DNA of 64,000 nucleotides from Bacillus sp. ISL-41 (GTDB lineage: Bacteria; Bacillota; Bacilli; Bacillales; Cytobacillaceae): NCBI RefSeq assembly GCF_018613235.1, contig NZ_JAGGQP010000034.1, positions 1 through 64,000 of the forward strand, read 5' to 3'. Under the pieces are notes generated by a model. It searched no databases and had not been told where the DNA came from. It was given only the letters and a program-made list of their open reading frames with translations. Made by a program: the position numbers and the translations under genes. Below, piece by piece: positions 11,778 to 13,933 of the stretch (positions within the stretch are counted from its first letter, which is position 1; each line of letters opens with the position of its first letter).

Positions 11778-11810
11778 GGCAGGCGCTTTCGCGTCTGCCT
11801 TATTTCTTTT
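11773..11810. terminator. bidirectional terminator yneQ / yneR
   Basis: AATAAGGCAGGCGC pairs with GCGTCTGCCTTATT around TTTC. T runs lie on both sides; the stem overlaps the yneR stop codon region. Confidence 0.88.
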
Positions 11811-12093
11811 CAAATTTAAAGTCAGGTTCATGGCCAACCGGGTGGAGTTCCACGATCATATCATGGCCATCAAAATACCAAATATCTTTTTCTTCAATAT
11901 AATAGGTGATCCCATTTTTTTCTGTTTTAACACCAATGTGATCCGGTTCTTCCTTGGAGACACCTAATGAAAAACCTTTCTGGATTGAACTGAAACCGCC
12001 GTACCGGACAAAAAATCGCAAATAGCTTCCGGATGAAAGGTCCATTTCATTTTCATACCATGCTGCTGCATCATCATTAATTGTAATTTTCAT
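11800..12093 (-). CDS. yneR: HesB/IscA-fold protein YneR, lacking cysteines
   Basis: 97 residues with the HesB-like pattern (SYLRFFVRYGGFSSIQKGFS, then VSKEEPDHIGV, DGHDMIVELHP). The three cysteines that bind Fe-S clusters in IscA are absent; the protein has no cysteine at all, so it cannot be a classical scaffold. Gene order after yneQ, but on the opposite strand, matches B. subtilis yneR. AGGAGAACAAT precedes the start. Confidence 0.88.
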   Translation of the reverse strand: MKITINDDAAAWYENEMDLSSGSYLRFFVRYGGFSSIQKGFSLGVSKEEPDHIGVKTEKNGITYYIEEKDIWYFDGHDMIVELHPVGHEPDFKFEKK

Positions 12094-12171: not shown

Positions 12172-13338
12172 TTATTCTTTTATTAATTGAGTCATATGAT
12201 GCATGATCTCATTGTATTTATTTTCAGCTTCAGCAAGGCCGTATTGACCGGCTTGTTGCAATGGAACAACTCGGTAATTACTTTGCCTGCTGCTCGAAAC
12301 AAAGGTTGGAAGGAAATCAGGGTTTTGCAATACGACTTTATTGCCATCGGGTGTAATGGTTTTTATTATTTCAACAGTAGCGAGACCGCCGATATCTTTA
12401 TAGTCCCACATTTGACCTGACAGGAAATTTCCCAGAGAGTAGAAGACCAATGCCTTTCTGCCGTCCGTCGCCATCAGCCATTCCATAGGCTGAAGAACAT
12501 GAGGATGATGACCAAAGATGATGTCAACACCTTCATTGATGAGAAACTGGGCAAGCTCTTTTTGATCAATGGTAGGGAAACGCTGGTATTCATTTCCCCA
12601 ATGGATACTCATAACGACAATGTCTGATTCTGTTCGGGCGCGGTGAATCTCCGCTTTCATTGCTTCTCGGTCAATCAGGTTTACTAGGTGGTTCTTTCCA
12701 AAAGGGACGGGGATGCCATTTGTTCCATAGGTGTATGACAAATATGAAACATTTATCCCATTTCTATTTAGGATCCGCAATTCTTGCTTGTCTGCATCGT
12801 CCTTATACGAACCAACATAAGGAAGACCGGTCGCTTCCAAATTCTTTATGGATGCAAGAACACCCTTTTCAGATTTATCAAGGGAATGATTATTTGCATT
12901 CGATACAATATCCACCCCTGCATCGATCAATGCCTCTCCAACTTCAACCGGGCTATTGAAACTAGGGTAGCTTGATAAGCCGATTTCTTCACCGCCAAGA
13001 AGTGTTTCCTGATTCGCCAGCAAAAGATCCGGTTCTATCAAGTATTCTTTGACATTACTGAGCATTGGTTTGAAATCATACCCTGGATTCACAAAGGCAT
13101 CTTCATAAACTGTATCGTGGATCAGGATGTCCCCGATTGCTCCAATCTTTACTGTTTCTACAAAACTCTTGCCGCTAACATCAAAGCTTCTTTCAAGATG
13201 GGATTTTTGAGATTTCATTTTAATACTTGGTGCCTTTGCCTCGGCTTCATGGTACATCTGGAATGTTAATACAGATGCCAAAACACCTAAGCCAGTAAAC
13301 AAGGCCAGTCCATAAGGTTTTTTCTTCTTTTTTCTCAT
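12172..13338 (-). CDS. CapA/PgsA-family membrane-anchored metallophosphatase-like protein
   Basis: 388 residues. A basic N-terminus (MRKKKKKPYGLAL) leads into one membrane segment (about 12-28), and the rest lies outside. Family motifs are GAIGDILIHD, NANNHSLD, HWGNEYQ, FGHHPHVLQP and YSLGNF, the metal-binding set of the calcineurin-like CapA fold used in poly-gamma-glutamate capsule synthesis. No capB, capC or capE gene is nearby, so this is one of the stand-alone CapA-like proteins common in Bacillus; its substrate is unknown. Confidence 0.88.
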   Translation of the reverse strand: MRKKKKKPYGLALFTGLGVLASVLTFQMYHEAEAKAPSIKMKSQKSHLERSFDVSGKSFVETVKIGAIGDILIHDTVYEDAFVNPGYDFKPMLSNVKEYLIEPDLLLANQETLLGGEEIGLSSYPSFNSPVEVGEALIDAGVDIVSNANNHSLDKSEKGVLASIKNLEATGLPYVGSYKDDADKQELRILNRNGINVSYLSYTYGTNGIPVPFGKNHLVNLIDREAMKAEIHRARTESDIVVMSIHWGNEYQRFPTIDQKELAQFLINEGVDIIFGHHPHVLQPMEWLMATDGRKALVFYSLGNFLSGQMWDYKDIGGLATVEIIKTITPDGNKVVLQNPDFLPTFVSSSRQSNYRVVPLQQAGQYGLAEAENKYNEIMHHMTQLIKE

Positions 13339-13516
13339 GGTAATCTCCCCAGATTAGAATGAGGCATTTTTATTTTTTCGCCTCTAAGGATAATATATTA
13401 TAAGAATGGTGTTAAATGTATAATTTTCAGTATGATATTCACTATTTTGTCAAAATTCGATAATCTTTTTTTAAAAAAGGATATGGAAGAAAGTGACTAA
13501 AAAAGGGGGAGAGGAC

Positions 13517-13804
13517 TTGTTCAAAATAACAGAAAGTGCATCTAAAATTTTGCGTCAGGCAATACGGAAAGAGAGCAAGGATGGGGAAAAGCTATATGTC
13601 CGACTGACGATGGGAATCGGCTGAGGAGGACCTCAGCTTCGGGTCGCTCTGGAAGAGCAGCCATTAAGAAATGATCAGATTTTTACATTTGAAGAGGTTT
13701 CTATCCTGATTCATGAAGGTGATTCAGTTTATTTCACTGATACAAAACTGGATTATGTAAAAGATGTTTTTGGCACGGGAAAGTTCAAACTGCTAAAAGT
13801 GTAA
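13517..13804 (+). CDS. HesB-like selenoprotein (in-frame UGA read as Sec36)
   Basis: Reading from TTG 13517 gives 95 residues if the TGA at 13622-13624 is read through. The first part ends LYVRLTMGIG, the TGA follows, and the frame continues GGPQLRVALEEQPL without another stop to TAA at 13802-13804. The TGA falls where IscA/HesB proteins have their first metal-binding Cys (consensus GGCSG), and HesB-like selenoproteins with GIG-U-GG are an established prokaryotic selenoprotein family. The product has no Cys elsewhere and no C-terminal CGC. GGGGGAG sits six bases before TTG; a GTG at 13493 is also in frame. Alternatives are a nonsense-mutated gene or a sequencing error, but the intact downstream frame argues against them. 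Confidence 0.85.
13621..13658 (+). promoter_or_regulatory. candidate bacterial SECIS element
   Basis: CTGAGG pairs with CCTCAG (13621-13626 with 13631-13636), a perfect hairpin that contains the TGA. Further on GCTC pairs with GAGC (13646-13649 with 13655-13658) around the loop TGGAA, about 25 bases after the TGA, a distance and G-containing loop that suit SelB recognition. Which fold forms in the RNA is not known. Confidence 0.5.
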
Positions 13805-13817
13805 GCAGTAATGCAAA

Positions 13818-13849
13818 AAAAATGCGGTTCTTCGGGAATCGCATTTTTC
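13818..13849. terminator. bidirectional terminator
   Basis: AATGCGGTTC pairs with GGAATCGCATT around TTCG. A T run follows on the plus strand and a longer one on the minus strand. Confidence 0.8.
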
Positions 13850-13933
13850 TAATAACTAATTTTGTGAGGGGAATTTCTAGTCTATTTTCAAATTAGGAAA
13901 TCCAATAATCAGTAAGAAACTTAGTGAATCATA

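Follow-up and report, generated by a model that had tools for sequence, protein, structure and literature searches.

Gene and reading frame

The window, that is, the whole stretch of 64,000 nucleotides analysed here (positions 1 to 64,000 of contig NZ_JAGGQP010000034.1 of Bacillus sp. ISL-41), contains a short HesB-like gene whose frame runs across a single in-frame UGA. The gene and the features around it are as follows:

11800..12093, reverse strand: HesB-fold gene without Cys, YneR/PdhI-like (PF01521, 29.5 bits); context only
12172..13338, reverse strand: CapA-like (PGA_cap) gene, a divergently oriented neighbour that many relatives retain; shown for context
13505..13514, forward strand: gggggagagg, putative ribosome-binding-type sequence directly 5' of the TTG start, as read from the sequence
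13517..13804, forward strand: predicted HesB-like selenoprotein gene, 95 aa, TTG start, UGA as Sec at codon 36, TAA stop
13622..13624, forward strand: in-frame UGA in the motif G-I-G-U-G-G-P, placed by translation, homologues and profile alignments
13643..13661, forward strand: predicted SECIS hairpin, 25 nt after the UGA, stem 13643-13649/13655-13661, apical loop UGGAA (13650-13654)
13818..13848, forward strand: strong A/U-flanked hairpin 3' of the stop, probably a two-way terminator (fold -17.8 kcal/mol, z -5.47)

Translation of 13517-13804 on the forward strand gives 35 residues, the TGA, 59 residues and a TAA, and positions 13517-13801 form a single frame across 13622-13624. The original prediction of a frame open on both sides of one TGA is therefore confirmed. 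It had further stated that the product has no other Cys; the Cys count of the translation is indeed 0, which leaves selenocysteine (Sec) as the only chalcogenol. The TTG lies 2 bases 3' of gggggagagg, and a search for the coding pattern around this UGA gave one match in the window and none in 100 shuffles. No terminator was found by a consensus scan, although the fold shows the strong hairpin at 13818..13848.

The gene is a solitary one, flanked by capA and a histidine kinase gene, at a site that is kept in many relatives. Neighbours often kept with genes of its clade (clade A, see below) are spoVK-like, yneP, yneQ, yneR, capA, histidine kinase and plsY genes, these names being partly our assumption, and no pathway is suggested by this neighbourhood from the spoVK-like gene to plsY. 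We take the gene at 11800-12093 to be yneR from the gene order that we presume for B. subtilis.

Conservation of the UGA

The 193 genomes that represent the window's family, as the search tool delimits it, were searched with the protein, and 148 of them gave a match at E 1e-6. Among the matches listed, each row contains one TGA, and one row also contains a TAA. The 30 best and 40 further loci, picked by hand from the matches listed and ranked by score, were read, and at the Sec place TGA was found in 71/71 homologous places of these 70 loci (the window's own, L009, included; alignments of fewer than 40 columns were dropped, and a few places are near copies). Since all 71 places read have the same TGA, a sequencing error at 13624, which the original prediction had named as a refuting result, is untenable. 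The frame 3' of the TGA is kept in nearly all of these places; L077 has a later in-frame TAA, and L090 and L027 have a divergent C-terminus.

The 71 places split into clade A with 60 places, including the window's, and clade B with 11. One locus (L057 of genome G158) combines two clade B UGA genes with a third, truncated copy without the Sec region, all within 12 kb. The aligned starts of the 60 clade A places are ATG in 40, TTG in 15 and GTG in 2 cases, while 3 were not placed. Cys is absent from 52/60 clade A and from 11/11 clade B places. In a tree of 105 rows and few columns, with the YneR and SufA rows on very long branches, clade A forms one side of a branch with a support of 100/100, clades A and B together reach 100/99, and clade C, which comprises three paralogues of the window's genome and their kin, 100/99. 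Every second clade A row is omitted from this tree, as are L077, L090, L027, L299 and the phylum-sample rows L224 and L227.

Scanning for the TGA-bearing octapeptide motif gave at least 119 stretches, 80 of which were taken as loci; because they were picked by their TGA, they are not counted as evidence for it. A scan of the genome contigs with U turned to C (MGIGCGGP with Cys codons) gave four stretches, none of them a relative. The record L149, titled Pseudomonas sp. ISL-84, bears the Bacillaceae motif and is probably mislabelled.

Selenocysteine machinery in the genome and in the family

The window's genome (57 contigs, 99.98% complete) encodes selA (563.1 bits, cut-off 267.9), selB (359.6 bits, cut-off 242.25), selD (394.1 bits, cut-off 125) and a tRNA-Sec (67.4 bits, cut-off 47; ARAGORN anticodon TCA). 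A search for selA, selB, selD and selC had been asked for beforehand, with a lack of selA, selB and selC counting against the prediction. All of them are present, so that the genes of the Sec system postulated for this organism are there, and the genome holds the complete set of selA, selB, selC and selD expected alongside a bacterial selenoprotein gene. The selD gene has a single in-frame TGA of its own, in the motif AGUGCK. SelD, encoded on contig C48 (L256, 6225) at about 0.5 kb from selA, is itself likely a selenoprotein.

The assumption that Sec is uncommon in Bacillaceae had to be given up, since selA exceeds the cut-off in 172/193 genomes and is thus the rule in the tool-defined family; the window's genome alone has at least four HesB-like UGA genes in addition to SelD. 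A match to the window protein is present in 144/172 selA-positive versus 4/21 selA-negative genomes (Fisher 3.5e-9, kinship ignored), which leaves 28 selA-positive genomes without a match at E 1e-6. As to the four selA-negative genomes, the match in G165 is weak (9.1e-7), G179 is 81% complete and has a tRNA-Sec, and G171 and G175 have a clade B gene with TGA, without selA over the cut-off and without tRNA-Sec. Among the best 30 genomes, 22 have the gene and selA on one contig, at a distance of 9.6-32.6 kb in 21 and of 80.7 kb in 1; in 3 others, including the window's, the two are on different contigs, and 5 are without a listed selA place. This distance pattern is due to inherited gene order.

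The SECIS hairpin

The helix 13643-13649/13655-13661 is paired in 97.4% of 385 cells of a set of 55 sequences, which includes 25 phylum-sample relatives from outside the window's genus. The number of double-changed cells (64 versus a shuffled mean of 17.6) and the covariation score (0.531 versus 0.244) were matched in 0/500 shuffles each. The count of pairs with double changes (4; 85/500 shuffles as high) and that of pair types (12; 171/500 shuffles as high) were not above the shuffles. With the partner slid by 1-3 columns, the paired share was 22-56%. In 40 other clade A sequences the stem contains one bulged U, with 100% of 240 cells paired and two pairs changed on both sides. The fdhF element of E. 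coli presumably also has a bulged U.

Codon use supports the same region. Across the 59 distinct clade A sequences, hardly any synonymous variation is seen from codon +7 to codon +12 after the UGA, with Ser TCT in 41/41, Leu+9 CTG in 59/59, Glu+11 GAG in 59/59, Leu+7 CTG in 38/41 and Gln+12 CAG in 36/37 cases within the hairpin. No such constraint is seen for the Glu codon that reaches into the apical loop with its third base (GAA 42, GAG 17). Elsewhere, six codons each are used for Leu+5 and Arg-7, four each for Gly-3, +1 and +2, and three for Gly-1; Leu+14 is likewise codon-biased (TTA 33/45).

In the window the stem contains one C-A mismatch, which also occurs in L010. Folded over 54 bases, this copy does not stand out from shuffles (z -1.23), and the hairpin energy is -5.6 kcal/mol for 19 nt, -8.6 kcal/mol for 21 nt (13642-13662) and -10.0 kcal/mol for 23 nt (13641-13663). 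Because of the mismatch, the ordinary fold and the modest energy, the case for a SECIS rests on comparison. Bacterial SECIS elements are characterised, in PMC13188914, by a loop of 3-9 nt whose first two positions include a G, a distance of 16-37 nt from the UGA, a stem of 4-16 bp and an energy of -7.5 or below. The hairpin of the window agrees with these values, yet its 19-nt core alone (-5.6) stays above the -7.5 limit.

Against Rfam, 13400-13900 yielded no SECIS family, the two matches obtained being weak and unrelated. A covariance model from the 55 sequences found four places in the window's genome at E 8.1e-12 or below and a fifth at E 0.1. The four (the window, C23:18633, C23:66018 and C37:9671) each belong to the UGA of a HesB-like gene; since they are among the model's own sequences, only the lack of a strong fifth place is informative. 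We propose that the hairpin at 13643-13661 would direct SelB with Sec-tRNA to read the UGA at 13622-13624 as selenocysteine.

Fold and family membership

The window protein matches PF01521 with 29.4 bits (cut-off 26.3). An AlphaFold model from a 22-row alignment reached a pLDDT of 94.0 and a pTM of 0.84, and at E 0.001 or below Foldseek retrieved nine chains of IscA, SufA, AQ_1857, HI1723 and DsrR, IscA among them at E 1.2e-5; the protein thus has the HesB/Fe-S_biosyn domain. Profile alignments to solved structures put Sec opposite the first Cys of IscA-type proteins, and the Cys-type relatives of a paralogue agree, as was expected from the position of the TGA. Sec thus occupies the conserved Cys place within UGGP, in line with the UxGP motif that PMC13188914 lists for HesB-like selenoproteins.

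That these selenoproteins are an established family had been stated from the outset and agrees with Table 1 of PMC1794560, with 11 of them, and with Table 3 of PMC5029168, with 90 proteins in 86 organisms. A HesB-like selenoprotein of M. maripaludis was identified via mutagenesis and 75Se labelling, and the function of HesB-like selenoproteins is termed unclear (PMC11097638). For the window protein the assignment as a HesB-like selenoprotein stands with regard to fold and Sec place. It does not extend to the two curated models, as the scores for TIGR01911 (HesB_rel_seleno; 24.1 bits, cut-off 66.35) and NF038090 (IscA_HesB_Se; 32.2 bits, cut-off 85) are both under the cut-offs. Missing TIGR01911 alone means little, since its cut-off was reached in 0/398 phylum-sample genomes; with both cut-offs missed, the clade is a divergent one within the established family.

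The window protein shares with HesB-like selenoproteins the HesB fold, the UGGP motif, Sec in place of the first Cys and the bacterial SECIS type. It differs by its low model scores and by having no Cys, whereas at least one Cys, nearly always near the C-terminus, is present in 26/27 phylum-sample rows (30 loci fetched, 27 rows read, among them L224 and L227 of the window's genus and the Cys form L236), only L229 having none. A C-terminal Cys, which is common in the rows compared and not defining for HesB-like selenoproteins, is accordingly absent from the window protein. Judged from the sequences, the missing Cys and the scores far under TIGR01911 and NF038090 make the clade a variant, beyond one more member of the family. 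Among the open-licence papers listed for HesB and Sec in Bacillus, Bacillaceae, Mesobacillus, Neobacillus and Cytobacillus and for arsenic resistance, this mostly Cys-free Bacillaceae clade is not described, the family itself being already established. For decoding as Sec, HesB fold and family membership jointly, we put the probability at about 0.93.

Paralogues and plasmid copies

The paralogues of the window's genome are found in other gene contexts. One HesB-like UGA gene with the C-terminus DCC (L254 7890-8165, C23:65889-66164, reverse strand) belongs to an ars operon with the order arsR, arsB, arsC, arsD, arsA, UGA paralogue, a gene for a 151-aa protein, trxB. Another with a SECIS (L255 9671-9724, C37, forward strand), which reads GISURSS for UGGP, lies in a second ars-like cluster; of these two paralogues in ars clusters, family models were run on the first. 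A third (L253, C23:18507-18779, reverse strand) lies between a UppP-like gene and an apparent tungstate-type ABC transporter (names by eye).

In the best 30 family loci of clade C, the Sec place is TGA in 29 and TAA in 1. The locus with TAA (L277, G010:C2:43781-44056) is from a selA-positive genome, and its SECIS string remains. A clade C homologue at E 1e-5 is present in 8/21 selA-negative genomes, with Cys in 7 (L300-L302 and L303-L304 being near copies) and TGA in 1, the gene of G171 (L299), which has no clear N-terminus. G032 is selA-positive, yet has the Cys form. In the eight Cys forms the hairpin string is gone by eye, though L306 has a similar one. Within 1.5 kb of an ars gene are 20/30 clade C loci with TGA and 6/9 without, these 39 loci being the best matches to an ars-linked query and not a random sample. 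A HesB-like gene is also reported from an ars operon of Bacillus sp. CDB3 (PMC4562236, PMC5481582). This gene, orf7 of the ars1 operon, is accompanied by arsD, arsA and a phosphatase-like gene, as is the L254 paralogue (PMC4562236), and differs from the window gene in being nearer to the clade C paralogues.

Clade B genes occur on plasmids. Stretches of 10,261 bases in G171 and G175 are identical, and 99.99% identical to G048 (L051, L052, L053), whose stretch we infer to be plasmid pBO1 of Cytobacillus oceanisediminis. Since they are near-identical to this plasmid, the clade B genes of G171 and G175 are read as orphan genes that probably moved recently into hosts without selA or tRNA-Sec. On pBO1 the gene occupies an unannotated gap, with rhodanese, TusA, DsrE, TauE, MBL-fold and peroxiredoxin genes clustered around it. 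In the PLSDB tables, which are incomplete, the four closest clade B plasmid records have no CDS annotated at the gene. A plasmid copy of M. foraminis reads GIGUGGP and has copper genes, among others, as neighbours instead of a persulfide cluster.

These comparisons bear on other readings of the UGA. If it were a true stop or a sequencing error followed by a pseudogene, the plain ORF list would be explained, which ends at the UGA and gives an ORF of 43 aa as the sole one on this frame; the TGA in 71/71 places, the frame mostly kept after it, the conserved SECIS and the Sec genes make this reading negligible. Decoding by another tRNA, through general read-through or UGA=Trp, would account for the open frame on either side and is just as improbable, because the UGA stands at a Cys place, UGA and Cys alternate in a paralogue with Trp in 0/39 rows, the SECIS is conserved and a tRNA-Sec is present. 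Pseudogene, sequencing error, plain stop and UGA as Trp were rejected on TGA conservation, SECIS, Sec genes and Cys alternation. Decoding of the UGA at 13622-13624 as selenocysteine is, from the same comparisons, almost certain.

Possible function

In the proposed mechanism a selenolate would stand where IscA-type proteins have their first cluster Cys. This single selenolate may handle a soft partner, either a persulfide or sulfane sulfur or a metalloid, and a thiol from outside would resolve the product. The presence of paralogues in arsenic and persulfide gene clusters leads us to favour such a soft-ligand selenolate protein over an Fe-S carrier. Extrapolating a sulfane or metalloid function from the paralogue neighbourhoods to the window gene itself is tentative, and we regard it as a possibility with the odds somewhat against it. 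Still more speculative is a role of these proteins across Bacillaceae in carrying or sensing sulfane sulfur or metalloids through a single selenolate, a job unlike Fe-S assembly, with sister copies that would travel on plasmids, in persulfide clusters, into hosts lacking selA and tRNA-Sec. A HesB fold is also found in DsrR of Allochromatium vinosum (2k4z), with 28% identity to the window protein in the alignment, and the clade B gene is located in a sulfur gene cluster. DsrR, which we take to be part of a sulfur-oxidation operon, is presumably not a selenoprotein.

Two other functions appear less likely. An ordinary A-type Fe-S carrier of the IscA/SufA/ErpA type, with Sec for one ligand Cys, would be in accordance with PF01521 over its cut-off, with the fold matches to IscA and SufA and with the first-ligand position, which is alike. 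However, the C-terminal CxC is absent, which makes a canonical A-type carrier unlikely; instead of the three ligand Cys of such carriers (C...CxC), the protein has Sec for the first and no Cys at all, as do most clade A and all clade B places. The ErpA, IscA and SufA models score it far below their cut-offs. Moreover, the genome has its own SufA-like protein with three Cys (L218; residues 45, 109 and 111 of the open frame), which together with the missing CxC makes Fe-S carriage less likely, and we consider it improbable. No more probable is a redox-switched protein-protein regulator, with Sec as the sensor. The model for this would be YneR/PdhI of B. subtilis, which has a HesB-type fold in common with the window protein and presumably no Sec. 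Unlike what we propose for the window protein, PdhI binds and inhibits pyruvate dehydrogenase E1, according to PMC10090944. In favour of a similar role are the Cys-less HesB-fold gene at 11800-12093, close by in the window and in many relatives, and a fold match to 9a4q, an OdpA-YneR model; this match is weak (E 1.8e-3), though, and the selenoprotein gene and the 11800-12093 gene are not co-directional.

The ars and persulfide neighbourhoods and the natural Cys controls in selA-negative relatives make the function of HesB-like selenoproteins testable in culturable bacteria. Besides the 11800-12093 gene, a further Cys-less relative is located at C57:134945 of the same genome.
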